Positions 1,827 through 64,000 of a stretch of DNA of 64,000 nt are shown piece by piece (position 1 is the stretch's first letter; the number at the start of each line of letters is the position of its first letter). Under the pieces are notes generated by a model, which was not told the DNA's origin, did no database searches, and worked only from the letters and a program-made list of their open reading frames with translations. Made by a program: the position numbers and the translations under genes. Source of the DNA: Harmothoe impar (taxonomy: Eukaryota; Annelida; Polychaeta; Phyllodocida; Polynoidae); assembly GCA_947462335.1 (NCBI GenBank), contig OX381704.1, forward strand, positions 20,290,442-20,354,441, in the 5' to 3' direction.

Positions 1827-1835
1827 TTTTCCGAC
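1823..1835 (-). promoter_or_regulatory. candidate -1 frameshift site at gag/pol junction
   Basis: On the minus strand gag ends TCG GAA AAC TAG. Slipping back one base on G GAA AAC places the ribosome in the open pol frame, which continues without a stop through the protease. A heptamer directly before the gag stop is the arrangement of several retroviral gag-pro sites. GGAAAAC is not the ideal X XXY YYZ heptamer, and I did not fold the downstream RNA, so the exact slip site is inferred. Confidence 0.5.
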
Positions 1836-4054: not shown

Positions 4055-4079
4055 CTTGGGCGTTTTTCTGCTGTTTTAA

Positions 4080-30200: not shown

Positions 30201-33200
30201 CCTGCTTTCCCTACGCCTTCTCTTTGGTGGGGGAGAAACAGAATGAGTCGGCAGTCGTCGTCTGTCATGACTGTCATGACTGTCATGACCACCACGTGCG
30301 TCACGAGCAAACCTCTGCAGTCTTTCCTGCCTTAAATGTTCTAAGTCCATTCTCTGTCGTCTCTTTTCTAGCATAATGCTGTAGTCAGCCAGCCTTTGTC
30401 TCTCTCTTCTCAGAAACTCCTCATCATCCATGGACTCATGGTAATCCTCAGAGAGTTGCCAGTCGGCGAAACCACGCCTCCTGGACCGGCCCCTTGACTG
30501 GGATCGGGCCGCATGAGTTGACACCTCGGAGTCAGCTTCAGCCTCGGCGTGCTCAGCCTGCTCAGCCTGCTCTGTCTCCTCCTGAGCATTTTGGGATTCA
30601 GAATACTCCACTTGGCTTGCTTGCTCTTCAGCTTCAGCTTCAGCGTTCACTTCCCCCAGTAACGAACATTCATCGTTGGAGTGTGACATGTTGAGAACCA
30701 AGATGGCGACCTCGTGGTCGCACGTGTCGTCGCAGAGAACTCCGTCTATCTGCAATACACAACAAGAAAACTGGTTAGCGCCGCCAGCCAGAAACGGTAC
30801 AATACTTTAAAAGTAATGTATCGCGTTTTTTAGCTCCAATGAGCGTAAAAATTAAAGAAAAACCGAAGAAAACTCTTCACTTACCACGCTGCTCTTTCCA
30901 CCAACTTCTGTCTGATCCTGATGCGCACGCGCAACTGACGACTTCCGGTCCGGTGTCTTCTCCCTTGTTCTCCGACAGCACAACAAGTGGTGCTGACGGG
31001 AGAGTTAGAATTAATAAATTTTATCACAGATAAAGAATACCGGATTCAACGTAATAAGCGCCCCCCATGGCTGTATCATACAGACTACTTGACCACCTCA
31101 GTAGGCTCTACAGTGCTTCTACTCACCCCTATGCCTTCACACCTGGCTTGGCCTTAACACCTGGACAGGTGTGAAGTGTTTCATGTCACACAAGGTGTGA
31201 AAAACAGTAACAAAATCGGACAAACATCTTGAAAAAATCTGAAAAAGGGGGGGGGGGTGGGCGCTCATTAGGGGGAGGGCGCTTATTAGGTCGAATACGA
31301 TATCTATATTTTCCCTATGAGACGTACCTTGGTCGTCCTGGAAGTTGATGTCTATGCCTGGCTGCTGCAGGAGGAGGTCCACGATCCCCATGTGACCCTT
31401 CAGGAAGGCGATACCCAGCGGCGCCACCTTGATATAGCACAGGAAATAAGGTTACATTCTATGGTAAATACTAATATCTTATTGTCTCAACTACAACTAT
31501 AAACGGTATTTTAATACGTTAAGGGCAGCATAGTACCATAATGATTAGCCTAATGCACTATACTCTTTGTCAACATAATGCATGAATGCAGCCCTGGCGA
31601 CTCGTCAGGGCTACATTCATGCATCATGATGCTTCAATGCAGCTTTGAGTTACTCGCCAGGGCTTCATGAATGCATCATACTGACAAAGGCTCAATTGTA
31701 TTAATTCACAACCTAGCCCTAGAGGGTTTACTATTAGTTGACTGACCTGCCAGTCGTTGGACTTGACGGGGTCTGCGCCGGCCTGTATGAGGGTCTGCAC
31801 ACAGAAGTACCAGCCGTAGGCGGCGGCGTAGTGCAGGCACGTGTTACCGGACGAGTCGGCCTGGTTAGGGTCCGCCCCCAGACTCAGCAGGTAGGAGGCC
31901 ACGTGTGCCTCGCCGTTCATCACTGCGTGGATCAACGGCGTCCTCTGGAGCTTGTCTGAAATAAGGTGTTATGTTTGAGTTTATCGTGCATTAATTGTAT
32001 ATTACACTATTTTACACACTTTTATAGGACCAGCATTATGTAAAGTCGCTATATCCATAATCGAAATCGGTGGATTGTCTCATCAATTGATATCTATCCT
32101 TAGAATTTTGTGCCTTTTATCTCTTGACTTCTCTTGATATTCAGAGATGTAAGTCAGGCATTGACAGAACCTGAAAAGTTACTTGATAATCCTGAAAATC
32201 CCAATATTGAGTGTTGATTTGATGAAAGCAGAACCTTTTTTTCTGGGAAATCTCTGACCACTTCCTTACATCTCTGTATTTGCTAATACGAGTGACTGGG
32301 TAGCAGATGAAACTCATTGAAACCAAAATAGAACTTCGTTCATGAGATTCACTTCAATGAAAAGTTATACCGTAAAACGTCGCGAATCAGACCCCAGTGC
32401 TGATTATAGGATGCCCCAACTTGGGGTGTAGCCTATAAATGAGTTGCAGTATTTCAGAGGTTTTACGGTAATATGTTGACTTGTACCTTTCTCCTCGACA
32501 CGCGCCTTCTCCTTGATGAGCATCTTGATGATGGGCATGTTCCCCCTGGAGGCTGCGATCATTAACGGAGTCACACGGTTCTTTCCCGCGCTGAGTTTCT
32601 TGTGGACGTCTACGCCATACTTTATGAGGGACTTGACCACCTCCTGCACAACACAACAGGCAACAGGTTAGAGCTGTAACCCTTTAAGGACAGATGTCAT
32701 TAAAGATGACATTTGTCATCATGATGCACCAATGCAGCCCCCACGAGTAACTCGCCGGTGCTACATTGGTGCATCATGCCGACCCTTCGGGAGTATAGAT
32801 CTCAACTGTGTAGGGTCGGCATGATGCTTGAATGCAGCACTGGTGAGTTACTTGCTAAGGCTGCATTCATGCATCATGACGACCAAGGGTATGATGCATT
32901 AATGGCTGAACCACATTATACAAACCCAGAGACTGCCAAAACAACAAGTAGCAAATGTTATCATTTTGTTCAACCTTTTGGAGGAAATCACATAAAGTAA
33001 AACATAGAAATTCCTGCCAAACAGCAGGAACTTGCAGAGCTACCAAATGATGCACTTACGGCTTGATCCTTGGCGACTGCCAGGTGAATAGGACAGTAAG
33101 TCTGGTATTGGTTAGGTTTCTGGATGGGGCGGTCAATCCCCCCGATACCGTAACGGCTGACGGTCTGTTTTGGCCCCTCGTCATCACTGCCGTCCTCATC

Positions 33201-44231: not shown

Positions 44232-46416
44232 AAGTAATATTAGGAAAAAATCAGACCTACCTTAATTTTTGGACCACACCTGCCCTTGTGAAACCCCTTA
44301 CTTTCACATCCCCTTAAAGTTATTTAGTTTATTGTTATTTGGAGGGGGACCGGATAGACCAAACCACACAACCACAACCACCTATATCAACTGTTTGATT
44401 TGCTTGTTTTGTCGGATGTACTTATAATGCATTAATTGTGCTGAATAGCGCTGTTGAATTGGATATACAAATGCACACGTTGCTGAGAAGGTCACAAAAT
44501 GACATATTATCTGTCGAAATTTAATAAGGCTAATTATCAATCACATTGAAAATCCATAGATTGAAAGGGTTAGTCAGTGCAGACTATTCTAGGTTGGTCA
44601 TATGAGTGTTAGTCATAATGGCAAAGTTATATTCAAAAATAACCGAGGGGTCAGTCAGTAGTGGCTAACCAAGGTTCATCATTGGTGTGTTGTATTTGTA
44701 TACCACTAGTTGGGGCCACCTGTCATGACCACTCGGTGGCTCCCCCTGGAAATAAAAAGACTAAGGTGGGTTGGTCAGTACTGACCAACCTGACAATAAT
44801 AACTGACCTAGGTTGGTCGTATAGGGAGCCAAAAAATGACTAACTAGCTTAGGCACTAGTGACTGAGAGGTTGGGCGTATAGGGAGCCTAGGAATATCAG
44901 TGCACTTGGAAGTGACACACATATATTTCTATTATCCCATAGAACATCGTGATTCGAATCACCCATGGACAAACACTATGAACTACTATGAGATAAATAT
45001 TATACGGACACTGCTACTTGTTAGCCACTCTATAGTTGATAGTACAATTTATTTGTTGTAGTCATTCTCTTGTCAATATTCTTGGAGAACACCGACGTTT
45101 TGGTTCAGTTACAATTGAAAACATCACATGACTTGCTCTGTAATACTTTGTAATAAAAGAGTCTCGTTTAGAGCTCACTGAAACGAAAACACCTATGGTT
45201 ATACATTGTACTGCCAGATGGGATACCCCGGGCATGCACAACTGAATAGGCTACATATTGCAGAATATATATGTATGGCTTTGTCCAGTGGCCTCGGATA
45301 ATCGAGTCGGCTTACTTGTATTCAGAGAGATCCCCAATACATGACGACAAGGTGCATGCCTGTTTGGGCAGCGGTTCTCTCTATAGGAGCGCAGGGGATG
45401 ATCTGGATTTGAGAAACATTGGACTGGAGGTAGTTCATCCTACTTCCCCCATCACAACCCTAGAAGGGTATTCTGAGGAATTATTCAGTCTTTGGTTAAA
45501 CAGAGCGATAAAGGTGTGTTCATTAATCAATAACAGGTGTATGATGAACATGCTTACGCCCCCTCCCTCACTCAAGAATATAACAACCTGTTACCAACAG
45601 CATAATACGAATTCCCGGAGATATGAATTACAAGCAATATGTGATATGGGATTATAGAACTACGGGGCATGGGACGTGGGGACAGGGGGTGTGGGGACAG
45701 GGTATGTGAAGACAGGGTATATGGGACGTAGGGTGCGGGGGGAGGGGGGCATAGAATATATATGGGGATGCATCGTATATGGGATGTGGGGACATAATGA
45801 TTATATCCATGGGATGTGTGGACATGGAATTTTGGGATACGGAATGTGGGTACATAATGATATAAAAGTGCCTATTCATGGGTAAAACTCGACACAGCAT
45901 GTATAGAAACCCCTCGGATATACAACTCTTCCAATACACACCCGGTCCTTACCCTCCAATACACGCAAAATCACACCGACTGGTACGGAAACCCTCTCAT
46001 AGTACGCACATGGGTATATCCTCAGTCCCAGCGCCTCCAAGAAAATGAACAGGAGGAAATTTATAAATATATGATTTATTTGATTCAATTACAAAAACAG
46101 GTATTTTGTTACACAAATAGTTAAACATTAAAGTTATATACATACTTCCCCCATCGCTCGGTGGGGCTGGGGCGCATCCCACTCAGCCTGCGGCTTCGTG
46201 GGATACTGCCCCAGCCCCACCTCGGGGGGAACGATACCAAAATATCCTCTGGCCATGGGCCTTTGTCTATGTATATGTACAGATCTTAATACCCGAATCT
46301 CCATATATGATATAAGAAGTGTATACTGGGTATTACTTGTTGGATCCACCAAGCCTTTGATCAACTCAATTTTTGGGCCTGTCAGTCGCATAAAACTGTA
46401 CATTTCGTCTTTAGAA
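44232..46416. other. intergenic, repeats only
   Basis: 44560-44880 has repeated GGTTGGTCAGT and GACCTAGGTTGGTCGTATAG segments in both orientations. 45660-45860 is a loose tandem array of GGGATGTGGGGACAT. No supported gene. Confidence 0.6.
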
Positions 46417-46670
46417 AGGCCAAAAGAAAGAGAGGTTTATTTCAGGTAACATGGGCAGAAAATGTAGGGTCGGTATACCTATAGGTCGGATTTTTTAAAC
46501 TTTATTTTTAACATAAAAATACCAGCCGGCCGGTCCGAATACCATCATATATTGACCAAAAAAAGGGTAAAAATATGGAAATTTCTTCAAAATTGCATAA
46601 AAAGACGTAGGGTCGGCCCTGTTTTGATGTCGGGTGACCTGAAACAAACCTTTTTTTTTCGTTTTGCCTA
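46417..46670. mobile_element. foldback element, AAGGCCAAAAGAAA ends, copy 1
   Basis: Left end AAGGCCAAAAGAAAGAGAGG, right end CCTTTTTTTTTCGTTTTGCC. Inner paired boxes are TTTCAGGTAACATGGG against GGTGACCTGAAA, and TAGGGTCGG in each half. Second copy at 50790-51115. Confidence 0.8.
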
Positions 46671-46739
46671 ATTTAGGCAGGGGCGGACCCAGGAATTTGA
46701 AAAGGGGTGTCCACCAAATACCAGAGTACCGAAAAGGTA

Positions 46740-46885
46740 ACACAGTGCTTTAAACAACTTTTGCGAGCAACTCGTCAGTGCTTTATCCATGCATGCATCA
46801 TGCTGGCCTGAATCAATGCAGCACCCGCGAGCTACTCGCCGTGCAGCACCACTGCGTAGGCGCATCTTGACCACAAATAGACATG
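46740..46885. repeat. GCATCATG-family repeat, diverged
   Basis: Contains AGCAACTCGTCAGTGCTTTA, CCATGCATGCATCATGCTGG and CAATGCAGCACCCGCGAGCT. Lies just downstream of the hypothetical ORF. Confidence 0.65.
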
Positions 46886-46942
46886 ATAATTGAGACATCG
46901 TATGGTTCTAAATTTAAAAGGCTAGCGTTCCTCCATGTTCTG

Positions 46943-47491
46943 TCAATAACAGTCCACCTCCTGGCTGAGGGAGGTGGTGGGTGCCCGCACCGAGCCTTCC
47001 GGTGTGTAGAAGGCTTTATGAGAGTCTATAAAGACTTCCATATTGTTCCAGGCATACTCCTCCAGGGCGCGGGCGTTGCCCTCCTCCGCCCACCCCGCCG
47101 TCCTGCTCCGCTTGGCGGCGCTGGTGGCCGTGGGACGCGACAGACGCTCAATCAGTGACGTCATAGCGGGAGGGCGCGACGGCTTGAGGCGACCGGAACT
47201 GGCTCTGGTGGGCGCGGGCTGGTCGGTTCCGGTGATGGCGGCGGTGGGCGCGGTGTTGGGCGGCCTGGGGGTGCCTGCCTTACCGGCCTGCAGCTTACCG
47301 GAAGTGACGTAGCCGTAGGCGTAGCTGGAGCTGTAGGTGGAGGCAGAGCCGTACTGGTGGGGGCGCGGCGCCGGAAGTTTGTAGCCCGCCGGGATAGACT
47401 TCTGCCGCTCCATCAAGTTCCTCCTGGCGAAGTTAGGTCTGCGCGGGAATCCGCCGGACAACTTCTCAAAGTAGTCAACCATAGTGTTCAA
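46943..47491 (-). CDS. hypothetical protein, 182 residues, GC-rich single ORF
   Basis: Start ATG 47491, or more likely 47482 (MVDYFEKLSGGF). The DNA is strongly GC-rich against AT-rich flanks, which supports real coding. The N-terminus is ordered and basic (RRPNFARRNLMERQKSIPAG), the middle is Ser/Tyr then Pro/Ala/Thr-rich and probably disordered, and the C-terminus is ordered and acidic (ALEEYAWNNMEVFIDSHKAF), ending EVDCY before TGA. No signal peptide, membrane segment or known domain. It may be an intronless gene or the coding part of a longer one. I do not recognise the family. Confidence 0.6.
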   Translation of the reverse strand: MNTMVDYFEKLSGGFPRRPNFARRNLMERQKSIPAGYKLPAPRPHQYGSASTYSSSYAYGYVTSGKLQAGKAGTPRPPNTAPTAAITGTDQPAPTRASSGRLKPSRPPAMTSLIERLSRPTATSAAKRSRTAGWAEEGNARALEEYAWNNMEVFIDSHKAFYTPEGSVRAPTTSLSQEVDCY

Positions 47492-47499
47492 TTCTTAGT

Positions 47500-50400
47500 T
47501 ATACCCTCTAAAGCTGATAGTTCCTCTATATCAGGCGGATATCGCAATATCGACCACCCCGTTTTGAAATGTCCACGTTGAAGAAAGGCTGATATTCACC
47601 AAGAGAAGTTTGCGAGGTAGGTCCGACAGATCCAATCTGTTCCTCTAGATGAGATGTGTGTCATCCAAATATTATTACAAAGGAGCTGAATTTATAACCT
47701 GTCCAACGTGTAGGGTGTGAAATATCCAATACCAGTAGATACATAGGAAGTGATATCAGTAAATCCTATATTTCCGCAATAACCCAACAGTCTGTTATTT
47801 CAATTGAAATATCAATCCCAATTGAAGCTGCTAGAATTTCCAAATCAGTTATTCTGGTAGTATTGTGTAGGGCCCCATACCTACTACCAACGTGTGTAGT
47901 GTCTGTGGATGTTCTGCCCAGTTCAAGCATTAACGCCTTCCTTACAGTTCCACTAAGTCAAGGGTTTAAGTGTACCCGAGGAAAATAAACATGAGTCGGG
48001 GTAATCAAGAGATTTAGACATGTAGGGATCAGTCAGCAATGGTGTTGCACTGCAGACTTACTGCCCAATCTGGGGGCTTTAGGAGTGTTTTGTAGATTTT
48101 ACCTTAGATATCATGTCGGATAAGCCGTCATTATTCTCAGGGGGCAGTAGAGAAAATCCATAGGCCTACATACAAGGGGAAAGTTCTCTCGTGAGTCAGT
48201 TTCTTTCTTTAACTGAATATACCTACACTGTGTATGAAATACATGCATAATGTAGGGTAGATTCACCACGCACGGACGCTCATTGGCAGTGGCAATGTCA
48301 GGGTGTAATTTCGTCATATCTTTTGAAGGTCTCTAAATGATTGTTTCTTTTTCTTAATTAATATGTCTTTGTTACTATGGACGTCAGAATACATATAAAT
48401 TTCCATCTAGCTCATAATATATATCTTAATTATATGTAGATTAAACAGGCAGATTTATGTCACAACACTCCTGTCTGACTTAAGATACCATTTAATTTGA
48501 CATATCAGACATTAGCTCCTCACCCTAAAACAGGCCCATTTGAGGACCTGATTTGATAATACATAGATATATTATTAGCTTAAAGACATGCAATTTCCTT
48601 TGTTGTTAAGAAAACACCTGAATTCTATTGTGATGCCCATACAAATTTCAAATAGTTTGGGATGAATTATGCTTTTTAATGCTAAAGGTGTCCGACATGA
48701 CTTATGTGTCCGTCTTTGGGTGAATCTACTAGTACCCTATAATGAGTACAGGAAGTAAAGCCACTAAGAAACATTGGTTTCTCAGCACTGCATTGCGCGC
48801 GTCATCAAAATCGGTCTTTGAGAATAACCTGTTTCCCCTTTTCTTTTTGCAAGTTTTTTTTTATGAATAAAACAAAATCGATAAATTATTGATATGACAA
48901 AAATCGATAAATTATTAGCATATTTGGTATCAAATTAAAGCGTATACTGTTAGTAATGCAGTTGGCTCTGAATAACATTTGCTCAACATTTAATAATCAA
49001 TAAACTCTTAACTACCAAAATGTAAAATTTGATCACAGAAAGTCTTTACACTTGCTATATGCATATGTACATGTTTTGGCCCCTCAGTATAAGGATATGA
49101 AACTAAAAAACGCCCTCGTCATATTTTTTCAGTTCTTGGTGATGAGAAAGTATTCTTTTTGAGTGGCCTAATTGTTCCCAGATATAAATCTCACTGTTAG
49201 GCTTAGGTGAAACTGAAGATGACATAGGTTCCATGCTGTAAATGTGATGACATTTTTCAAGTTAACTGTAGGCCTATTTTTAAACAGAATTAGAGTGAAT
49301 AGAAAGAAAACCCCATAATATGGCTGCATACATGTAATGGAGCGTGACTGGAGAATATATAGAACCGTGTCGTATTGTATATATATATATACCTAGACAA
49401 ATGACAACGCCCATTCATGCTGTCTCTGAATTATTTCACGAGTGGGGGCTGGGGCCATGGCATATCCCACAAAGCTGCAGGCTGAGTCGGATGTGCCCCA
49501 GCTCCCATGAGTGATTATGACCACATTGTGTTCAAGGGGGGCATTGAATACGGCCCTTCCAGTGCATTTTGTTCTCAAGCATAGTAAATCCTGTATTTCA
49601 AAAGGATAAATGTATATAATTAGGCTGTATGCATTGGTCAAGTAATACAAACACACTGAAATGGGTTTCAGATCAACTATGTTTATTCTGCCACACTGTA
49701 GCGGAAAATCTATCCTTTGTCTAGTCGAGATAAACTCGTCAACTTAAAAAGACAGCAACTGTGCATCATAAAGATACAATCAAACAATATAATACATGGT
49801 TTCATGATTTTGATAATGTCCCCCATATCAATTTATGAATGTTGCAGTTAAGAATAGCTAATACAAAGTACATCTTTGTAAAGGTGCCCTAGCACACGTC
49901 TTAAATACATAGTTATGGAAGTACATGTATATGCGTAGCTACATAAGATAATGAACACTTGCGGTGTCTAATCAGACTTTTATAACATACATGTATAATG
50001 TAATATTTACACAATGACCTTATTTAGGCCAAATATAGGCCAAATTAAAAGAAAGGCTTGTTTCCACGATATTATAACACGATCCGAAAGGTTGCGGCAT
50101 ATGTAAACATTTTCTTAAGAAGACCGTTTGCTCACAGATCTCTGTTGTGGGATTTTCTTTGACAAACAGCATAAACACAAAAGGGAGGTTTGGGGAAAAA
50201 CTCTGGTACTTAGCCTAGATCGTAGAAAATACGTACCAGGTAGACACATAAAATATATTGAAATAGCATAATATAGCCTGAGACCAACTCTGCTCTGTTG
50301 AGTAGTCGGGTGACTGGGAACAAGCTCTGTTATACAATGTGACACTATAATTGTTTAGCTGCATGTTTGAAATATAAAATGATCTCAGTACAAAACCCCT

Positions 50401-50789
50401 TCTTCAGGACAACCTAGTTACAGCTCTATCTCTGATGTAAGTATATACGTATAATGATGTGGTATAGCAGTGGCTTAGACAGTATGCTATCTTAAATACT
50501 CGTTTGATTTAAAGCTTATCGATATTATTCTGAGAGTCAACGGATTTGCCATGTATTTTATTGTCGCGAATTTGCAATTTTTGAAGATCGAAGATCAAAT
50601 ATTTTATTCACTTTTGTATCTTATCACCTAATTTTGATAACACGGTAGTATATTTATATATTTAAAGTATGAATAACTGTATTGAAGAATCGGAGATGAC
50701 ACTACATGTATCTGTACTCCCCAGAATATCCGAAATTTTGAAAATGTTAAAGATTTCACAAGAACCTTTCCCTGAAATATGGATATAAT
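47500..50789. other. AT-rich intergenic region, nothing recognised
   Basis: No ORF with protein-like composition, RNA gene or clear repeat was seen in 3.3 kb. A short AT run (ATATATATATATA) lies near 49380. Confidence 0.6.
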
Positions 50790-51115
50790 AAGGCCAAAAG
50801 AAATAAAAGGTGTGTTTCAGATTACATGGTCTGAAAATCTAGGGCAGGTAGGTCGGATTTTAGATTTTTTTAAAAAAATTTCTTTTACCTTTGGCCTGTA
50901 AAGTACCTAGAAATTGACTCGCAAACTTGAATACTGACTAGCCAATGACCGCATCGACTAGTGAATTATCAGAGCGACTCGTAAATTGCCCCAAAATGGC
51001 CTAAAGTAAAAATAGATTTTCAAAATTGGATGTAAATGTCTAGGGTCGGCCCTGTTTTGCTAAGTAGGGTCGGGTAACCTGAAACATACACGCTTTTTAA
51101 AAAAAATTTGGCCTA
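50790..51115. mobile_element. foldback element, AAGGCCAAAAGAAA ends, copy 2
   Basis: Left TAAGGCCAAAAGAAATAAAA, right TTTTAAAAAAAATTTGGCC, with the same inner boxes as 46417-46670 (TTTCAGATTACATGG, GGGTAACCTGAAAC, TAGGGTCGGCCCTGTTTTG). It lies about 60 bp from the stop of the zinc-finger exon. Confidence 0.8.
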
Positions 51116-51177
51116 AGATAAGAATGATGCAAGGGAGAACCAAGATGAATGTCATCCATCTTGCGAAACTGTGGTAT

Positions 51178-51913
51178 CTATTGAAGCTGCTCTTTCTGGC
51201 ATTTTCTAGAGTGACTCCTTAAGTAGTCCTGCCTTTCAAAAACGGAGCCACACTCTGTACAAACTATCTCCTCCCTTGGCTTGTGCTTTTGTTTCACATG
51301 CCTTGATAGGTTTGATGTCTGCGTGTACGTCAAGCCACAGAAGGCACACGTGAAGCAGCCTTTAGCATGACTCTTGGTCTTCCCCCTTTTGGCACCCCGA
51401 GATATTGGTGAAGGATCCTTCCCTGGCCCGGTGTCGTCGCTCTGTCCTTTTGGTGGATCAGTGGTGCCTTCTGCCCCACCTCCAGGTGTATGCTCACTAG
51501 CACCCTCTGCTCCATCCTTGGATGCATCCCCACCAGCAGCTGCTGCCCCATCCTTAGGTCCATACACCACCCGCATGGTGATGCTGTTAATGACCATAGA
51601 CTCAGGAAGGCTCTCTATAAACCTTATAGCCTCCTCCCGGGTGTCAGCCCCCGACCTGTCCAGCACCACACAGTTCTCTTCACAGTTCTCTTCCTCCACA
51701 TCGTCTTCTACGGTCATTACACTGTCCTCCATCTCGTCGTCTCCTGAAGACTCTTTGGTGCCTTGATCCTCCTCCTCCTGCCCCTTGAGCAGACCGCTGG
51801 CAGGTTCTGGGATGTCCACGTCCTGAGGCACGTCCACCACCACCTCATCCCCTACCAGCAGCACGTCTGGGAGGCTTGGGTGCCACAGATCCATCCTCAA
51901 GGCAGCCTGGTGA
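51178..51913 (-). CDS. C2H2 zinc-finger protein, terminal exon
   Basis: The acceptor TTTTGTTTCCAG ends at 51914, and the exon runs to TAG at 51178. The first ATG in the exon (51894, MDLWHPSLPD) may be the start, or the frame may enter from an upstream exon. The protein has an acidic N-terminal half (EEEDQGTKESSGDDEMED, VEEENCEENCVV), a Gly/Asp linker, a basic patch (RGAKRGKTKSHAKG), then finger 1 (CAFCGLTYTQTSNLSRHVKQKH) of C-X2-C-X12-H-X4-H form and finger 2 (CTECGSVFERQDYLRSHSRKC) ending in Cys in place of the last His. Likely a nuclear DNA-binding protein; partners unknown. Confidence 0.82.
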
Positions 51914-52069
51914 CTGGAAACAAAAGATGTGTCACTGTTTACAGGTGTGAATAGTCTTTGAATTACAATGATGAAGGAAAGAACAAAGGGAAAGTGCTGC
52001 CTCAGGTCCATTTTTTTCTAATTTTTATTCTTTATTGATTGCTCATAACGCAATAGACTGCAAGAGCAC

Positions 52070-53460
52070 ATGGAAGGTCACAATTTGTTAACACCAAGCC
52101 AGCATGGATATAGAAAAAAACACTCAACACAGTCAGCCATAAGTGCTCACTTATGTAATATTATTGATAATATCATATTAGATAAACCGACAATATCTCT
52201 TTACTCGTACTACAAAAAAACATTTGACACAATCTCACATCCCATCCTGATTCAAAAACTACAGGAATTAGGACTCACTGAGAACTCATGTATGTGGTAT
52301 AAAAGCTATTCAAGTGGAAGGACACAATGTGTGATTGCTAATGACACAATTTCAAGTAATAGAGACATCATGAATGGGGCACCACAAGGATCAGTGTTGG
52401 GCCCTGTGCTCTTCTCGATATACATAAACTCACTCCCTGACTTACATAATTATGATATAACATTGTATGCAGATGATGCTGTAATTTCTGTGAGGGAAGA
52501 AATGCTGCCCTAACCAAATTATCAACTTGGTGTGTAACTAATAGTCTGACAATAAATGAAAACAAGACAAAATGGATGATCTTTAATAATGTTGACCATA
52601 TAAATCCTGTCTTTTGCATCAATGCAGTAGTTTTAGATAGAGTGTACAGCTTCAAATACATTGGCTTAACCATAGATCCAGAAATGAAATTTATTGAACA
52701 TAGAAAGGAGGTTTCTCGTAACATAAGAGATAAAGTATAATACAACTGGCTAGAGTCAGACCTTTTGTGGAAGAGGATGTTGCCCTAACCATTTATAAGA
52801 CCATGGTACTACCATCATTCGACTGTGTAGACTATATATGGGATTGACTAAACCAGGGGGAAAACCGTGCCTTACAATTGTTACAGAATAAGTATCTGAG
52901 GATTGTTTATAAAGTTCCACTGGAGGAACATCCATTATATACTACAGCACAGTTGCATACCAAAAGTGGATGTCAGGAACTTGCAATTAGAAGAAAAACA
53001 CATTAAATTTTCTAAGCATATGCTGTTTCTAGAGTGGAGAGATATGTAGATAGAAGGGTTTTACCAACAAGGAGACATGTTGGCAGGAGATTATGTGTTC
53101 CAAGATCATTAAAACCAATAGTCATCAGAAGCTGTCTCTGGAGGGCAATCAATGTGTGGAATAGCCTGAAGGCTGAATACACACTGATTGAACACCTTAG
53201 GACCTTTAAAATTAATATAAGGAAGAACTATAAACTCATCTCATCAATTTATTCACCGCTAGTACGTGATGTATGTGATGTATGTTTGATTTCTTTCTCT
53301 GTGACGGTTTACAAGTATTATGACCGGCATGACTGTGAGTTGTTTCTGTATCCAGGTCCCTACATTACATAAAGGGGTCTTGGAGGCAGAATGGCAATGC
53401 GCCGAATCCAATGTATAACACATATGTTATAACTTATACCCAATAAAACACTTAAAAAAA
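52070..53460 (+). pseudogene. 5'-truncated LINE reverse transcriptase, decayed
   Basis: 52070-52513 encodes RT motifs LTPSQHGYRKKHST, FDTISHPILIQKL, GAPQGSVLGPVLFSIYINSL and YADDAV in one frame. Then a frameshift near 52500 moves the frame (LSTWCVTNSLTINENKTKW). Later parts (FKYIGLTIDPEM, LQNKYLRIVYKVP, LKPIVIRSCLWRAINVWNSL) are broken by stops and shifts. The end is AATAAAACACTTAAAAAAA. The motifs fit a CR1/Jockey-type non-LTR element. The endonuclease is missing, so it is a dead 5'-truncated copy. Confidence 0.88.
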
Positions 53461-56400
53461 TCACGTAGGTACAGATTGTCATGATCTACCCGATCAGTTC
53501 TGACGATATCCAATATCCATCTGAGTTATGAGAAATATAAATGTGTATGCTCCAAATAATGTAGATCATTCTCCCTTTAAGGGCCGCATATTGCTTTAAT
53601 CTAGTGCAAAATGTATGTACTTTATCGTCATGATGCCCTGATAGATAAAACATGACAGATAAAATCATGACGATATGGGACATAACACATGATCATGCCC
53701 ACCCTAGTACAGATGCAGGTTCAGCATACAATGAGACTGTCACATCCCATGCGACTTACATGTAGATTCCATCTACACATTTGATCTCATTATTTGAATG
53801 ATTGTACACTTTTGCACCATATTGCCCCGGGAGGGCATCACTAACTCTGGGAGCTTCTGGCTGTATTCTGTGCGCCCCACCCTTTGCAAACTGAGGTAAA
53901 TTATGGATAGTGACCACCCTCCTAAGCAAGTAAGATGAAATGTAAGCCCCCTGCTTTCATCTCATCTCAGCATCAGGGTACAGACATAACAATGGCAAAC
54001 TTACCAATTAGCATTCCATAACAATCAGAAATCCCAATCAGAAAGGGCAAACTAACCAATTAACCAAAATAATATGCTGTATACAGCCAGTGAATACTTC
54101 ACACGGAGGGTATTTAATCCCATGTATATGTCAGTCACCGACCCTGCTTTTTAGCTTTAGTGTTAATCACCAGTTACCACTCCGAAGGTTGGTACTGCAG
54201 TCAGCATCCAACCCATACTTCATTCCCCCCCCCCCCCCCATCCAAGAAAATGTTGAAAATGTTGATTATCCACACTTGCAATGCTGCCTCAGACATTTTA
54301 GGACCCTAACCCCTATCATTTGGGTTGTGAAATCGTTTTTTAAGGAAAGATTCTTTGATAATTTTCTGAAGAATATTTCATGGCCTCAAGAAAATGTTGA
54401 CAATCTAGATTTGAAATGATGCACTCTCAGGCATTTTGGACCAAAATATATTGAGACTCTAACCTCTATCATTTGGGTTGGGAAATCCCTTGTAAAGGAA
54501 AAATGCTCTGATAACAATCTAAAGGCCCGTCGTCCCCCGGATCCGCCAATGGACGGTTTATGTAGGGTAAATAGTGAATTTTTATAGTTCGTTTCATAGT
54601 TGTCAGCTATTTCTCAACATGCCTTTAAACATGTTTATCTTTCTACACTTTATCACCATAAAATTGCAATTACTCGCTCGCTACAATAAGGCCACTCAAA
54701 AAGAAATAAGATTGAGCCTGTGAGTGGCTTCACAGATGACTCAGGATAAGCTGGGTGTGTGAATGAGTAATGGATGTTTGACACCATTTTGACAAACCTG
54801 GGACTGTAGCTTATCATGTACAGTTAGATATAGTACTCCCTTATACTCATTTATTGGTCAATTCTGGCATCAGAAATGAATTCCTTGTTAAAAGGTACCC
54901 TCAAGTCATGTGTCATACATGTTATTCCATTTCAGGCCAGCAGGTGTGTGTGGGTGAGCAGGTGTGTGTGGGAGAGCAGGTGGGTGTGGGTGTGCAGGTG
55001 GGTGTGGGCGACAGTCGCCGGCTGCGGGCATGTACCGCCTTCTGTCCCTGTCAAAAAGGGAGTTTAAAAATACCAACTGTGACGTACATAGCGCGGCAAT
55101 GGGTGACGACACAGAGCCACGACAGAGGCCCATTGTGGAATGCAGGTATACTAATCCTCTGTCCAACCAACACACTTTGTGAGTAGCAGCGGTAACACAG
55201 GTGGAAATATAAATCAAATTTAAATAAGGTAGATGGTTTTTTTCTATTATCCTGAGGGTATTTTTAATAATGTAGGCCATTTTTAAATGAAAAGAGCAAA
55301 ATAGGACGCAGATTAGCTTAAAACATCATTTCTTTCTTTTTATTGTTGACTTTTAACACTATGTCCTATCCAGAATTCAATTAGAGGGTAGCAATTTAAC
55401 AGTTATTAAGAGTTTAGAGAAAAGAGAGAAATTATTACCCAAAGATCGCAGCTCATTTTCACAGGGGAAAAAAGACATTTTTAATATCTTTTTGAAGGAA
55501 ACATTTGTGTCATCTCATGTCTATCTATAACACAGGCTGAATGATAGACATTCTCCCATGTAACAAAAACGTCTTATATAACTCTGTTTACCCTGAGTCA
55601 ATGACGAGGGCACTTTTTTATGCTACCAATTATATTATTAATATGGGCATACTTGTTTTTTTTTGCAAACTGTATGTTTAATATGTAATAACATGTTCCG
55701 TATCCATCAAGAAACGTTTTGGAACTACTTTTTTTTTTGAAAGCTAGAGAAAAGGTTAAAGGAATGATCTATTACTAGTATAAGGGGACCACATGAATTC
55801 GTATAATATAAATCGGACTGAATTAGCTGCCAACCGACAACTCAAATAGGCCTACGTATAAAGCCTTATCAGTTGTATCAATACAACATCCTCCATACTT
55901 TGCCATGTGGAAACTGCTTATGTCTGTAACGTTGATCGAGTTAGCTTAAACAATTCTTGCCCCATGCTTTTCCATGATACACCGTCTGACTTTTATTTTA
56001 ACCTACCCTTGTAAATAATTGTTTATAATCTGTGATACTATGTGATCATCTGTGATAACTTGTTTATTCAATGTGGTTATTGAGAATCGCATAAAAACCT
56101 TTTGTAATAATCATGTGCTATATGTCATTGATCGTGAGGAATGAATAGATCACCTCGCGAATGGTTAGAAGGCTTTGTATTGACTGTAAAACCAATTACA
56201 CTGTATGTATCTTGTACACACGTATTAGAAACAAAACAAGAAACCTTAATTTTTTTTAAAGTTATAAATTTGGTAGATTAAAATTATATATGAAAAACTG
56301 ATTTTGTAACATGTCTACTATCACTCTGCATACACTATGGAAGACAATAAAGACCTATTCAAACCAAATAAAAACTTGACAGTGTCTGATTGTCAGTGGA

Positions 56401-58853
56401 TTGGGCACGTGGCTTGGGGTTCTGATGAGATGATGCATGTTAACGATGGGCTAGGAGTTATATCTTGGGGGCATAAATTTTAGTACATGAAGTATTATCT
56501 CCTCTTCAGAACACATTAGCCTTTCATCAAGATACAATGTTTGCAAATCTTTGCTCTTTACCTTTTTTCTGGCATTATCACGGTGCTGTAACACCTAACA
56601 TATGCAACACCTACCCGGGTAGCTGCATGGCCTCATTTATATGAAATAGTTCATCAAACTACATTTTGCATTACAGGAACATGAGTACCCCGTAGGCCTA
56701 AATCACACTTGGTGTGGTAGCCCTACATGACTATGGTGGATCCCTTATAGGCCTACACAATTTGAGTACACTTTAGAATGATAAAATGACTATTGGCCTA
56801 TGGCATTGTATTTGAATAAATATACATGTAGCCTTACGACTTCCTGCACCGTAAAATAAGAAAAAAAAAGGTAGTTTTGCTATGATTGCTATGTCTAATT
56901 GGCAATCAAAACGCAACAATCGAAATGGTACCCAAAAATCAATCCTTTGGCATACACTAATTGATTACCCACTCACCCACTAGGTACTTGCGCGTATACA
57001 TTCAGGTGGAAAGGGCTCGTGGCGCTACCCACACTTGAGTCGGTACCCTGGGTGGTCAATTGCCTAGTATACTTGAGCGGGTTGTCGGGATGAAAAAAGG
57101 TGTACATTTCTTTCTGATAGAATAAACGACACTTTAAATACCCTAGTTGAATACCGTTAGCGTTATGGTTGTTGGCCCTGGAGGATGGAGTCGCACTGAC
57201 TCGCGTTTTATTTGCCAACAGGTTCTTTTCCACCATATCGCTCGTCAAAGTACTAGGCCTAATGAGGTGGGCAATGCATTCATAAACGTAAGCATATTAA
57301 ACTAATTTCGGCTTCTTAAATATCTCGCCACCTAGTACAGTGTCCTGCCATAAGTGACAGAGCAAATATCCCAGTTGTATGTCTACATATTCCGTTTCAG
57401 TAAAAATAGCACAGGCTTCAAAACACAGAACAGTCTAGGGTAAACGGTGCACATATTCCCCACCAAAGTTAATTGATTGTGGTCAATGGACCCTGTGTCG
57501 ATTAACATTACAAAAAATAGATAATACACACTCAAAAACTGAACCTGTGCCTATGCCAACTACAAGACAAAATTTTGTTATGAAAAGACCTGCAAAAATA
57601 GTCTGTGTAAACTGGGGCAACAGAGAGAGAGCACCTCCGAAATTACTGCAAGAAAGTCACCAAAATTAACAAGTTGAAATCGTTTTGGGCTGTGACAGTT
57701 GCACCATTAGATCCTGGAGTCAATTATTCTCCAGTTCCAAGCTGTCTATAGACTCATTATGTCGAGATACTTACCTAAAAACCGTTGGTGATAGCAAAAA
57801 CGTAGGCCCCCTTCACACTTTCGATTTTGTGGTCAGTCTTCTACTGGCTGAGACTGGCAAAAACGTTACAACTACAGTGTTAATTTAAACCACAGGGTGG
57901 CGCCACTAGATAGTGTTTAATTAAAACACCAGGTGGCGGAGGTGGCAGAGATCCTGCAGCCAGAATGAAGAAGGGGAACTAGTGGAAACCTGGGTGGAAA
58001 CAGGAGGATAAGATTAGGTCGGACTTGGCATGTTAGGGGTGGGAAACACATGTGAACTATGGAGAGATTATTAAATTGTCCACATGATCATTGAAGTGTG
58101 AATGGTTATGAATATTTAGAGCAGAAATTGTACATGTATACATAAATGGTTTACCTATAAGCCTGTACACTATGTAGGCCTACAAGTATACTATTGTTAA
58201 TATTTGATATTTATTCCAGTTCTTAATTAATGCAAAGAAGAGTGTATCTACGAAAAAAATAAGTGAATCATTCCGAATCAAGAGGTTGTACAACACAGAT
58301 CTCAGTAGACCTAGAGTCTAACGAAGCCCGGAAAGCTAAAAATAATAATTTCTAAACTGTTAGATGAGACCAGACATTGTCCTTAATTTTCCCATCTCAT
58401 TCTTGTTCATTGCTCCATTCGTATACTTATACATGAAGTCAAAGTGCTGCCACACATAAATGTTTGGTCCACCTGTCATCTACCTTCCCCCCTTTCTCCC
58501 CACTCTTCTCTAGTCAGGCTCTACTGATTTAATTCATTTCGGGTGAGCTGGCAAAGCTATTCTATTGGGAGATCATCTTCTTCATTAAACATGGCCATGC
58601 TCTAGAGACTCCCCCATTGGAAATTTATATTGGAAATTAATTTTAGGGCGCTCTCGTGAAAAAACAACAACCCTGTGTGTCCGTGTGAACTTTCACCATC
58701 CCCCTCTTTATAAACAATCATCACGCCCTAATAAAAGAAGAAGTGATCAGGTCACCTTCCATGGGGCATAGGCGTTGATAATACCTTCAGCCTGCTGTTA
58801 GGCCTACGTGTATCTTTTTTTTAACATGACAAGGAGCGCATTTTATAATGATT
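53461..58853. other. intergenic region, no supported gene
   Basis: Holds a diverged GCATCATG repeat (53570-53680), a poly-C run and an imperfect ~200-bp tandem duplication (54225-54530, sharing TCCAAGAAAATGTTGAAAAT-like and CTATCATTTGGGTTG segments), a GGTGTGTGTGGGTGAGCA-type array (54935-55010) and GC-rich DNA at 55000-55150. Short frames at 54854-55186 and 56973-57248 are not convincing. Confidence 0.6.
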
Positions 58854-59605
58854 AGGGAGGGTTCATTATTTATGGCAGGGGGGGGGTGAGCATTTGAGGG
58901 GGGGGGGGCACATTTTTTTAGGGGTATTCAAAGGGGGGGGCCTTTTTTTTTTACCCTATTCTTAGGGGGGGGCCTTTTTTTTTAGGGGTATTCCTAAAAA
59001 TGTCGCGAATTTAGTATGTTGAAATGTCGCGAATTTTGGTAACAGCATGTGTTATATTTTACCAAATTATGTCAATATTTTTTGAATTTTCTAAAATTTT
59101 CCTCAAACTCCCAGCAAATTTCTCACTGCATCACTTTTGACACTCAGAATAGCCCACCGTTTTGTCAGTCTTCAAAAAAGTGCCGGCCTCATGTAAGCAC
59201 TGAGGGTGTGGGAGCTTCCAATTTATAAGCACTGGGGCCCTTAAACTCAACGGTATGTAAGTCAAGTGTCTGAGGTTTGACTATTATCACTCACCAGCGA
59301 GTATCATGAGACGTTTACACTAAAACACCTTACCAATGGATGTATTTGTTGCAAGTTAGAAAATTGTAGGTAAAAAAGTGCCCAGGATTAAATGCATACA
59401 ATTAGTAGACACCAACATCGTTTTTGTAATAAAGTTGAAAACGATCCAGGGTGAGGGGGGGGGGGGCGCTTTTTTTTCAACCTATTCCGAGGGGGGGGCC
59501 TTTTTTTTCCAACCTATTCCGAGGGGGGGGGGGCCAATTATTTTTGACGTATTCGATTTGCCAAACGCTCACCCCCCCCCCTGCCATAAATAATGAACGC
59601 TCCCT
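58854..59605. mobile_element. AGGGAGTGTTC-family foldback, copy 2 (large)
   Basis: Ends AGGGAGGGTTCATTATTTAT and ATAAATAATGAACGCTCCCT. Subterminal GGGGGGGCCTTTTTTTTT blocks occur in both halves. At 752 bp it is the longest copy, with unrelated-looking DNA in the middle. Confidence 0.83.
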
Positions 59606-59996
59606 TATAGGCCTGCGTTTTCTTTTATAGTTGGGGTCCATTTTGCCAAGCTCTTCAATCTTGCTTCTCAGGGTTACTGGCCTACCAAAGACATAGCCCT
59701 ACTTTGTCAGTTTGTCGGTGGCCTGGTAGAAAACAATAGCTGAAAGTGTTACCCCCCCTCTCCCCGAATCCACCACCCGGGTACATGTCGTTAAAAAATA
59801 ATCACTCCGTAAGGTTATCCAACGATTTGAGAGATGCTGGCAACTGAGAGATGTGTATTTAATTAAATTGGAGCCTTTAGTCAACATTCAGATCTGCAAA
59901 TTGTAACGTGGTCGCCTCTGTATTATGTGACTCCAGATGGGTCCAAACCTGGCGACATGGGCTGTCTTCCAGGCGACCTGGCGACCTAGTATACTA

Positions 59997-60304
59997 AGGG
60001 AGTGTTCATTTATTAATTACAGGGGGGAGGGGTGGTGAGATTTCGCGCAGAGGGGCGAACATTATTTACACCCCCCCCCCCTCGAGAGCGCGTGGAACGT
60101 TTTGCCGAAGGAGGCGAACATTTTTCGCCGACCCCCCTTTGAACTATAGTATCGCGCTGGCTTTTTTCCAGTGGGGCTAAATCTTTTATGCCCCCCCCCC
60201 CTCAAGAGGGGTCAGAATTTTTTACGCCTCCCCCTCAGGAGGAGTTTGAAATTTTCCCCCAACCCCCCCCCCCCTCCCTTGTAACTAATAAATGAACACT
60301 CCCT
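59997..60304. mobile_element. AGGGAGTGTTC-family foldback, copy 3
   Basis: Ends AGGGAGTGTTCATTTATTAA and TAATAAATGAACACTCCCT. Contains GGTGAGATTTCGCGCAGAGG, as in copy 1. Confidence 0.88.
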
Positions 60305-60362
60305 AATATAAGCGATCTGGCTACTTTGAAAGATTGGCTATATAGGCCAGTATAGCACTTAT

Positions 60363-60677
60363 GGCTGTGTCTCACGACCTTGGGACAATGCTTTTGTCTC
60401 TGACCGGGTGCCGTCTCTGACCGGGTGCCGTCTCTGACCAGGTGTCAGAAAAAGGTGTTTTAAAAATAATTGTACTCATATATATAAGGATTTAGAAAAG
60501 CGTTATGGCGGTTGTTACATAATCATAATTATAGTTATAATTAGCCTCCTGCTATTGGTATTTTGACCATATCAAGCCAAGCCGGTCAGAGACGGCACCC
60601 GGTCAGAGACGGCACCCAGTCAGAGACGGCACCCGGTCAGAGACAAAAACATTGTCCCAAGGTCGTGAGACACAGCC
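60363..60677. mobile_element. 315-bp foldback with repeated GTCTCTGACCGGGTGCC boxes
   Basis: Ends GGCTGTGTCTCACGACCTTG and CAAGGTCGTGAGACACAGCC are perfect, and pairing continues for about 85 bp per arm. Each arm carries three or four tandem GTCTCTGACCGGGTGCC boxes. The AT-rich centre has no ORF. TAT-like flanks may be the target duplication. Confidence 0.88.
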
Positions 60678-60952
60678 TATACGAGTAGTACAGTATCTAT
60701 GTATAGCATAAGTGACTTTGTGACCTGGGCCCTTTAATTTTACTCTTGTTATTAATAATGTGGTCACTTTTCGAAAATCCCATTGGTAACCGCAATCGTC
60801 AGGCCACAATACAGAAAAGTTGACTGAGCAAGCCGAAATCCCGCTGCGAAAATCCATTATTTTCCTCCACGGGGCGAAGCGCGAAAAGTATTCAGTGGCG
60901 CCCCCTATCCACATGTCAATGTTGTGGAAATCTTCAAATGAGGAAAACAGAA

Positions 60953-60965
60953 TACGTCACTTCCG
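60953..60965 (+). promoter_or_regulatory. candidate CRE/ETS promoter motif
   Basis: TACGTCACTTCCG combines a CRE-like TACGTCA with an ETS core CACTTCCG about 45 bp before the proposed start ATG at 61009. ETS (GABP/NRF-2) sites are common in promoters of nuclear genes for mitochondrial proteins, which would fit the predicted presequence. Motif only; no transcription start is known. Confidence 0.4.
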
Positions 60966-61008
60966 CTCACCATCACAACAACTTGGGAGCGTGGTGGTGA
61001 TCACCACG

Positions 61009-64000
61009 ATGTTACTGCATTTGTTCAAAAGACAAACGTATTCCGTGTTGTCTAGGTCATTAGGGAGGAGGAGTGTGGCAACAACATGTTGCCGGTGCAA
61101 GTTTTTCCAAGTGCCAAGCCCTGAGGAAGGTATGTACACTAAATCGGTTGACTGTTCCACAAGCCGTTACCACCTCTCAGTTACACTCAAAGGCTCACTC
61201 AATGTCACTCAACACACACTGACACAATTACTTCAATGATCATAATGACAATTGGTATTTAGGATCGTTTCCAATAGCATGTTTATATTCATGATACAAT
61301 TTGAAAATGAGTAGTAATTTGGTATAACTACACGGCTACTCTAAGGCTACTGTAAATATATCACATGCCTGATTTGGGACATAGATTTAGCAATATTGAG
61401 TGACTTAATAATTGAGAGAACTTTAGGGAGTGCTCATTTTTTAACATGGGGGCTGGGGGGTGCTGAGATTTTGCGCGGAGGGGTCGAAATTTTTTACCCC
61501 CCCCCCCCCCGGCAGGCCGAAAATCGTGCGTGTTTGCGCCCCTTTGTACTTGTAGCATAGTAACGCGCGGGCTTTTCCCCTCAAAACAGGTTGAATTTTT
61601 TTTACCCCCCCCCCCCAAGAGGGGTCTAAATTCTTTACTGTCAAGGGGTCGAAATTTTTTGCCCCCCCCCCCCCCGCTGTTAAAAAATGAGCTCTCCCTT
61701 ATTTCATGTATTTTCATAGAAATTGTGAGCTGTAAACAGGTCCTGAGAGTCTATTCAATATTGTACCACTCTTGATAGTGTTGTACCTTTCCTGTTCTCA
61801 AGAAATACGTTGGAGTCGCCGATACCCTGATCCCATACGAATTGTCACCACCTTTCTGGAACCGATGACCCAACTGCACCCCGAACATGAGCTCAAGGTT
61901 GAAGTTGTTCGATCCCGCTACCTCATCAAAGACCCACGCTGGAAAGTGACTTTGAAGTTCACATGGCCGCAATGCTTTAAAATATCAGGCGTCAACACTA
62001 CTCAAGACAGGGCCATGACAGGGGCCTTTCTAGTTGCATGTCATACGTTAAAGGTATGATGTCAGTTGATATGGTCAAAATGAATGATCAAATAAACCTT
62101 TAAGCCTTAAAAGTTAATGCTCCAATTTGTGTTGACTCGTTTATACAAAATCTATAGCATGAAAATAAAATAGCCTACTATCAATGTAATGTGAATGTAA
62201 ATTTTAATTCATAAGAATCATGTATGTGTACTATACATTTTCGTATATTCCTTTGCTTCGTACAGAACCTTGGTCTTCTGACGACAACAGGAGAGGAAGT
62301 GCCATTTGTGAAGCATCTTATATTAGCCAAGGAGAAAGCTGCTACCAAGCTGCCCTGTGATCTGATAAATATTAGCAGTAGATGTGAGCTGCTGGAGAGT
62401 GGCTCTAAGGTGTGGCACACGGAGATCAGGCTGCACTGGCCGACCAACATGGTGTGTCCAGGTGTAGGGAACACAGCAGAGGACGCCCTCAGGAACGCAG
62501 CCGTACAAGTCTTTGTCAAATTAAAGGTACTTAAGCAATACCATGGAAGTCAATAATAATTATTTAGATTTATGGCAATACCAATAACTATAAAAGTGTA
62601 TCGATATTCTAAATCCAACTATTCAAGTCTATTGTCCATGGAGAAAGACAGAATTTATTTTATTGTAACAATACAGGGGAAAGTGCATCAGCAATACCAA
62701 CTTGCAAACAGAGAAAATAGTTTACAGCTGGCTAAATGCACACAAAAAAAGGTACAGGTGGTTAAATGCACACACAAAAAGTACAGGTGGTTAAATACAC
62801 ACAAAAAACAGACCCAGTCAATTTCACTTATGTGGAATTTATTGCCGAGAATTTATACAAGGCTGTGGACGGTGGTAGTATGAATAATTGTCGGAAGATA
62901 TCGACGTTTTGACTGAATTCGTTAGTCTTTTTTAAGATATGCTTTTGTTTAACACTATTAATTGTTAGAATACTGTAACAATATCGGACATGGCTGCGAA
63001 GTGGAATTATAGGTCAATAAGACGATTCTGCCTTCTGTCAAAAATAATTATGACTATTTCTATTTCAGGTTGGAAAATATCTGGACAAGGATAATTATAT
63101 CAAGGAGCCGTCCAAAATAGAAATACCCAAGTATCAGGGATCCTCTCCTTTGTTGGCTGATTATGAAGTGCGCGTGGACTCGTCCCTCAGTGCCTATGGT
63201 GCCTACCTCTACTCTAATATGGACGAGGATAAAGATGACGAGGTACCCTGGATAACTGCAGCATGGCCGGAGGGCTTCAAGGTATTCATTGTTATTTTCC
63301 ATTTTCGATTTACAAGTGGCTTTATTTAACATTTGCAATGATGCAAAAATGTAAATGGGGTCGGTAACAGTTGTGTTATCAGTTTAAAAAAAAAGAAAAG
63401 GAAACAGTGATATTACTAACTGAGCAACATTCTAACATTTTACTACATACCATTTAATTTTAAGAATACTCAAGGTATGTAGTTTAAGAATACGCTTCTT
63501 AGATGCCTTTGGGCATGTTTACACTATACATCAATACAGCAAGAAAGGGTGACTCCCCAAAATAGTTGTTGATAAATGTTTGAACATTTCTAAAGTATGA
63601 CTGACAGCGACGTAAATATATTATATTCTCTTTATCCTGCATTCTGACATTTGAAAGATAATTCTCTTGTGAATCTGTTGATATGAAATGTTTGCAATAC
63701 AGACCATTTTATGAGGATTCTGCTCAATCCATTGTACAAACAATTTTGTTATAAAAAAGTCACTCTTTCTTGATACATGGGTCTATAGTCTTCCTTCTTC
63801 ATGTTCAAGGACCAATTCATGTCAGCACAGTCGGACAGCACCCTGTTCGAGCTGTGCGGAGTTCTCTCGGCTGTCTACACATGGAAGAAGAAGTTTGACG
63901 GCAAGCACGTGGTCGTCTACAACGACAACAGCGCCGTCATAGAGATGATTGATAGAGGCCTCACATTCAGAAAGAACGGAGGGAGACCATCGATATACAC
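61009..64000 (+). CDS. dsRBD-RNase H fusion protein, probable mitochondrial, 5' part (five exons)
   Basis: Exons 61009-61129, 61803-62053, 62266-62526, 63069-63281 and 63810-64000 (continuing past the window). All GT-AG junctions keep phase, giving 345 residues so far. Residues 1-30 (MLLHLFKRQTYSVLSRSLGR) lack acidic residues and are Arg/Ser-rich, like a mitochondrial presequence. Residues about 45-125 and 128-212 are tandem dsRBD-like domains with the KVTLKFTWP and EIRLHWP strands seen in DHX30. Residues about 240 onward are an RNase H fold. Predicted role: binding structured or hybrid RNA and cutting the RNA strand. A start further upstream in frame (60820) is possible. Confidence 0.75.
61425..61699. 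mobile_element. AGGGAGTGTTC-family foldback, copy 4 (in intron 1 of dsRBD-RNase H gene)
   Basis: Ends AGGGAGTGCTCATTTTTTAA and TTAAAAAATGAGCTCTCCCT. Contains GAGATTTTGCGCGGAGGGG, like copies 1 and 3, and long C-runs. Confidence 0.85.
61803..62053 (+). CDS. exon 2: first DHX30-like dsRBD
   Basis: 251 nt, acceptor TTCTCAAG, donor AAG|GTATGA. Encodes helix PDPIRIVTTFLEP, strands HELKVEVVRSRYLI and RWKVTLKFTWP, then the C-terminal helix TTQDRAMTGAFLVACHTLK. One exon equals one domain. The Trp-Pro after the last strand is a feature of the DHX30-type domain rather than of classical dsRBDs. Confidence 0.78.
62266..62526 (+). CDS. exon 3: second DHX30-like dsRBD
   Basis: 261 nt, phase 0 at both ends, so it can be skipped or duplicated as a unit. 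It opens NLGLLTTTGEEVP, like the DHX30 linker after its first domain, then CELLESGSKVWHTEIRLHWP and the helix TAEDALRNAAVQVFVKLK. The acceptor is TTCGTACAG. Confidence 0.78.
62700..62810. repeat. short tandem repeat in intron 3
   Basis: Three copies of a ~30-bp unit with GGTTAAATGCACACA and AAAAAGTACAGGTGG. Intronic and non-coding. Confidence 0.7.
63069..64000 (+). CDS. exons 4-5: retroelement-type RNase H domain
   Basis: Exon 4 (63069-63281) has VRVDSSLSAYGAYLYS, giving Asp248, and ITAAWPEGF. Exon 5 (63810-64000) has DSTLFELCGVLSAVYTW, giving Glu296, and GKHVVVYNDNSAVIEMIDRG, giving Asp321. The order D, E (with a tryptophan-ended helix), then YNDNSAV matches the RNase H of DIRS/Ty3-type retroelements, not cellular RNase H1. 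An intron splits the domain between Asp248 and Glu296. The fourth acidic position and the rest of the protein lie outside the window. Confidence 0.75.

Follow-up and report, generated by a model that had tools for sequence, protein, structure and literature searches.

The locus described here looks like an apparently intact gene of six exons, in which DHX30-like RNA-binding modules are joined to an RNase H of retroelement type. It begins near the end of a 64,000-nucleotide window (C1:20290442-20354441), the whole stretch of DNA analysed here, which is part of the 1.51 Gb assembly of Harmothoe impar in 736 contigs. We consider it probable that this is a single-copy host gene that brings together the RNase H of an old Ngaro-like tyrosine recombinase (YR) retrotransposon and DHX30-like double-stranded RNA-binding domains (dsRBDs), that the introns within this RNase H arose later, and that its product most likely binds structured RNA and cuts RNA:DNA hybrids. 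A first-pass annotation of the window had proposed a related interpretation, which overall is partly supported by the results below.

Gene structure

Five exons had been predicted between positions 61009 and 64000, joined in phase at GT-AG borders, and these borders and phases are confirmed (Table 1). Exons 1-5 have open frames without a stop and compatible phases (1,0,0,0). Exon 5 extends 13 bases beyond the end of the window, and extension of the contig beyond 64000, as the first-pass annotation had suggested, completes the RNase H with a sixth exon that carries D377 and the stop codon. Spliced together with the aid of this genomic sequence past the window, exons 1-6 comprise 418 codons. The chance that 418 random codons would be free of stops is about 2e-9, a figure that overstates the case because the exons were picked for being open. 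The exons have a GC content of 0.46-0.51, versus 0.28-0.43 for four introns, and the first AATAAA motif is located 186 bases 3' of the stop codon.

Table 1. Exons and two introns of the gene, in window positions except where stated otherwise.
Feature	Position	Strand	Content
Exon 1	61009..61129	+	Start codon and basic N-terminus, aa 1-40, presequence-like (putative)
Exon 2	61803..62053	+	dsRBD-like domain 1, aa 41-124; nearest is the DHX30 dsRBD
Exon 3	62266..62526	+	Tail of the domain 1 region and dsRBD-like domain 2, aa 125-211
Exon 4	63069..63281	+	Linker, then start of the RNase H including D248
Exon 5	63810..64000 in the window; genome end at window-equivalent 64013	+	RNase H core with E296 and D321
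Exon 6	Window-equivalent 64642-64848 (L002:1242-1448), beyond the window	+	D377 and TAA stop
Intron 1	61130..61802	+	Contains a MITE-like inverted-repeat insertion, 61425-61699
Intron within the RNase H fold	63282..63809	+	Between exons 4 and 5

The splice sites were ranked with a generic score that covered the sites within the window, the donor of exon 5 and the acceptor of exon 6 lying outside it. By this score, all eight in-window sites rank between the top 0.3% and the top 9.5% of the window's GT or AG positions. The weakest is the donor of exon 4 (top 9.5% of GT sites), and this, together with a genome full of Ngaro-like elements, would fit a model in which the locus consists of a DHX30-like gene or pseudogene (exons 1-3) and a separate old element fragment (exons 4-6) that has the mere appearance of being spliced to it. 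We regard this division of the locus as very unlikely. All junctions are phase-compatible, the phase-0 acceptor of exon 4 is among the best 0.3% of AG sites, and no reverse transcriptase (RT) or recombinase of the Ngaro-like, DIRS or Ty3 type adjoins the exons. Moreover, the RNase H coding region is split by two phase-0 introns with its frame intact, and the first of these is the intron that the first-pass annotation had recognized inside the RNase H fold.

The N-terminal half

The earlier proposal of two DHX30-like dsRBDs holds for both domains, each of which exceeds its shuffled controls in comparisons with a DHX30 dsRBD fragment. Domain 1 aligns over 58 residues without a gap to give a score of 77, which is reached by 0 of 5,000 shuffles. 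Domain 2 has a score of 47 (1/5,000 shuffles as high), and it also resembles domain 1 (2/2,000 as high). As a negative control, the RNase H was aligned to the same fragment, and its score of 23 was equalled by 3,055 of 5,000 shuffles. When the dsRBD half was searched against 177,635 distinct PDB sequences, the sole match at E<=10 was 2db2 (E=0.008), which represents KIAA0890 (DHX30).

None of the Pfam dsRBD models matches this half, and Dicer_dimer appears at E 0.12. Domain 2 alone has no Pfam match, and its PDB match is at chance level (a disintegrin, E=2.1). Single-sequence structure models of exons 2 and 3 (mean pLDDT 49.9 and 57.2, respectively) are too weak for a test of fold. With Foldseek, the exon 3 model matches other alpha-beta folds (best E 0.009), and the exon 2 model matches nothing below E 2, with a few dsRBDs among matches of mixed folds. 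Because the models are weak and their matches are both weak and of mixed folds, we count them neither for nor against the assignment. One more dsRBD match, weak (E 0.19) and interrupted by a stop, is located at G000:C3:52729047 and was judged to be due to chance. The alignment evidence thus supports the presence of two putative dsRBD-like domains whose closest relatives are those of DHX30.

DHX30 is an RNA helicase of mitochondria and cytoplasm. It is described as having two N-terminal dsRBDs (PMC8140440), and its mitochondrial isoform as carrying a predicted targeting sequence that comes from an alternative first exon (PMC8430983). The N-terminal layout of the gene, with two dsRBD-like domains and a possible presequence, is like that of DHX30. 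In contrast to DHX30, which has a DExH helicase core after its dsRBDs, no helicase is found among the Pfam matches of the gene product, and the frame ends once the RNase H is complete. Acidic residues (D or E) are absent from the N-terminus up to position 38 (P about 0.015 by composition), but its helical moment is ordinary, being reached by 1,499 of 2,000 shuffles. A mitochondrial location of the protein, which the first-pass annotation had called probable, is possible.

The RNase H domain

The residues D248, E296 and D321 are present in the RNase H block as the first-pass annotation had reported. Exon 6 includes YNIWLTARHVNRRLNQPADHLSK, the C-terminal part of the domain, which contributes D377 as the fourth catalytic aspartate, and so all four catalytic carboxylates are present. 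D377 lies outside the window from which the domain was first recognized, and therefore tests the RNase H reading independently; the reading passed. The score of a DIRS1 RNase H profile rises from 13.8 bits without exon 6 to 27.4 bits with it, versus a best score of 7.5 among 5,000 shuffles. The Pfam RT_RNaseH model gives 20.7 bits, under its cut-off of 24.8. Up to E=10, the Pfam matches include neither the cellular RNase_H model (PF00075) nor the hybrid-binding domain, with the HMMER filters removing most matches above 0.1. A search of the same genome with PF00075 scored at least 150 places and is uninformative on the presence of RNase H1.

Positions that are conserved in both groups of elements are kept in 13 of 18 cases versus 29 of 113 for the others (Fisher p 0.0002). 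The HIN motif has lost its IN, which is among the five altered positions, and alanine replaces two conserved glycines. These changes, along with the long branch of the gene in the tree described below, might reflect a domain that is catalytically silent or put to an alternative use, whereby the RNase H fold would act as a nucleic-acid clamp or decoy within a dsRNA-binding regulator, perhaps one that is a partner or competitor of DHX30. Retention of the four catalytic carboxylates and of the DN and AD motifs makes this unlikely in our judgment.

Ancestry of the RNase H

The block had been assigned to retroelements, and more precisely to the DIRS/Ty3 type. The broader assignment is upheld by two profiles that score far above shuffled sequences, namely the DIRS1 profile noted above and a Ngaro-like profile built from eight elements of the same genome, which gives 45.6 bits (best of 5,000 shuffles, 10.3). 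The narrower assignment requires adjustment, since the nearest relatives are Ngaro-like elements and not DIRS1 or Ty3. It was nevertheless close, because Ngaro-like elements belong to the same wider DIRS order. Local (Smith-Waterman) alignments yield z values of 17.7-22.1 for the eight Ngaro-like elements. Among 51 relatives of DIRS1 the best z is 16.2 and the median 7.7, with 0 of 500 shuffles scoring as high for 35 of the 51, and a single Ty3 sequence has a z of 2.8. We rejected a DIRS1-like or Ty3 RNase H as the closest relative, as both are outscored by Ngaro-like sequences on profile and alignment z.

The window carries a DIRS1-like retrotransposon of its own with long open frames (26120-30806, minus strand), which encodes an RT-RNase H with a weak Dam match, a tyrosine recombinase, and an upstream frame that has no Pfam match and would be gag by position. 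This element was rejected as a close relative of the domain. Its RNase H scores much like shuffled sequences against the in-window part of the gene's domain (1,240/2,000 as high), and it does little better against the full domain (48/1,000 as high).

A phylogeny of 26 rows was built from eight Ngaro-like elements (of 17 loci fetched), 16 of the 51 DIRS relatives, one Ty3 sequence and the gene. In this tree the gene groups with the eight Ngaro-like elements of its own genome (support 97/95), on a very long branch (4.6) of a kind whose placing the program flags as unsure. The Ty3 row is drawn among the DIRS rows. PAT-like, Viper-like and RNase H1 sequences are not part of the tree. In an earlier tree, which held the 51 DIRS relatives and one Ty3 sequence but no Ngaro-like rows, the gene was unplaced on a saturated branch. 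The profile searches and phylogeny suggested by the first-pass annotation, run here with DIRS, Ty3 and Ngaro-like sequences, agree with its retroelement-type reading; the grouping is with Ngaro-like elements, on a long branch.

The very long branch, the unsure placing of long rows and the position of Ty3 among the DIRS rows could also be accommodated if the RNase H were an independent host domain of non-retroelement origin, whose likeness to Ngaro comes from the common ancestry of the RNase H fold. We find this highly doubtful given that scores descend in the order Ngaro-like, DIRS1 and Ty3 (one Ty3 sequence), and given that PF00075 is absent from the Pfam matches, with the tree itself being free of RNase H1 sequences. 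The RNase H appears to be nearest to the methyltransferase-less YR (Ngaro-like) retrotransposons of the same genome, with the caveat of its long branch.

Ngaro-like elements in the same genome

A search of the genome with the RNase H gave 735 candidates, of which 150 were scored. Three of these are the gene's own exons. The other 147 include nine at E<=0.001, and a rough manual tally puts about three quarters of the 147 in open frames of at least 500 aa. The best match, L012, has an RT-RNase H frame (RVT_1, 63.7 bits), in which the RNase H is read in a single open frame, and after it a frame for a tyrosine recombinase, which PF00589 matches at E=0.001 without reaching the cut-off of the model. 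RVT_1 was found in all three element loci that were scanned, and the order of YR after RNase H was examined at one locus, L012, of the 17. No methyltransferase (Dam) match is present in L012. Ngaro and Viper elements are without a methyltransferase (PMC3266345), and for this reason we name L012 Ngaro-like. The name is provisional, because some further elements of the DIRS order may also be without this domain (PMC6681497). On these terms, L012 is provisionally a Ngaro-like element with RT-RNase H and then YR, and no methyltransferase.

Ngaro-like elements (e.g. L012-L028) are abundant in the genome, and the long open frames of many of them are a possible sign of recent activity. The gene shares with them the D, E, D and D motifs and a YNI...AR...N..AD.LS stretch. 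It differs from them in that no RT or recombinase was found beside it, in its six exons and its one copy found, and in the addition of dsRBDs.

One further proposal is that the protein is a defence factor, in which the dsRBDs would aim the RNase H at the RNA:DNA replication intermediates of related YR retrotransposons and so destroy them. The family that would be targeted occurs in this genome and may be active, since 147 of the 150 scored places are outside the gene and about three quarters of those are in long frames. No sequence feature of the gene points to element specificity, and we consider such a role quite unlikely.

Genomic context

The first-pass annotation favoured a host gene over a plain element, and named an RT or recombinase directly after position 64000 as the observation that would speak against it. 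Over 28.5 kb past the stop, no such region of the DIRS, Ty3 or Ngaro-like type is present. The neighbourhood searched by tblastn comprised window positions 45000-64000 and L002-L004, and so extended from 16 kb upstream of the gene to 28.5 kb beyond its stop. Within it there is no match to the window's own DIRS RT-RNase H, YR and gag proteins, to its Ty3 proteins, or to the 51 DIRS relatives. RT-RNase H frames of eight Ngaro-like elements, together with a single YR frame, matched only the gene's own RNase H and one site near 58954-59205 on the minus strand (E 0.087). A fragment of an RT of another type, LINE-like by eye, is located 8.5 kb upstream at 52049-52513 on the plus strand (RVT_1, 61.9 bits). 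In addition, exon 5 matches the 1.51 Gb assembly at a single DNA site, as found with a search tool that skips very common words. This single match, along with the lack of a DIRS, Ty3 or Ngaro-like coding region beside the exons, indicates a gene and not an element. The presence of two phase-0 introns in the RNase H, versus the single frame of L012, favours an old capture of the RNase H followed by intron gain.

Several other features were observed in the window. Three MITE-like insertions (58851-59608, 59997-60304, and the one within intron 1) have terminal inverted repeats with AGGGAG and internal runs of G or C. About 330 bases ahead of the start codon there is an inverted repeat (60363-60677) with 82-nt arms that are 96% complementary and a 17-bp tandem unit inside. 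The minus strand at 51178-52017 is open for 279 aa and encodes a C2H2 zinc finger. A Ty3-type element (3-4075, minus strand, and L008) has a protease-RT frame by Pfam, an upstream frame without a Pfam match that is gag-like by eye, and an RNase H just before the start of the window. A tandem repeat at 24439-25407 is open in three overlapping frames on both strands, and its repeated peptides are VLMRTLYPNACP, GYRVLIKTTGQAL and GIRVQGSHQDN.

Possible function and relatives

In the mechanism we propose, the RNase H of an old Ngaro-like YR retrotransposon would have become joined to a DHX30-like N-terminal part, and introns would afterwards have come to lie inside the captured domain. The two dsRBDs would bind structured RNA, as their anatomy suggests, and the RNase H would cut the RNA strand of RNA:DNA hybrids. 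We infer this activity and its substrate, and likewise transcription, selection and cell compartment.

RNase H1 is built from a targeting sequence, a hybrid-binding domain and an RNase H. The gene product is similar in that a duplex-binding module precedes the RNase H and a presequence is possible, and it differs in that its RNA-binding module is of another type and its RNase H is of retroelement type and not matched by PF00075. By analogy, a likely function is that of a structure-guided RNase H arranged like RNase H1. A more specific version is that the protein is a second RNase H1-like enzyme, in which the domesticated YR RNase H is directed by DHX30-type dsRBDs to structured RNA or hybrids and works, perhaps, within mitochondria or against its parent elements. 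We give this version slightly less than an even chance.

The frame and catalytic residues are intact, and so the gene is likely to be under selection. The retention of conserved RNase H positions (13 of 18) is an indirect sign in the same direction, whereas the altered HIN motif and glycines speak against it. No protein relatives were found in a collection of 5.8 billion proteins, either with a query of 345 of the 418 residues or with a 150-residue composite made of pieces of exons 3, 4 and 5. This absence is weak evidence, because the collection may not hold spliced animal proteins. A scan of viral contigs with exon 4 also gave no match.

It is well known that gag, env, integrase and transposase of retroelements have been domesticated. 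PEG11/RTL1 and Imagin resemble the gene in that an element-derived domain is retained as a host gene, whereas their origin is gag-pol or integrase in place of the YR-element RNase H with dsRBDs proposed here. Among the titles and abstract openings listed in searches of 5.39 million papers, few of them from subscription journals, none mentions a host gene centred on the RNase H of a YR retrotransposon. The reuse of a retrotransposon RNase H by the cell looks like an uncommon case of retroelement domestication. If the protein is active, the RNase H1 layout of a duplex binder plus an RNase H would have arisen a second time, and the gene could be tested as a candidate factor that removes hybrids or controls elements in an animal.
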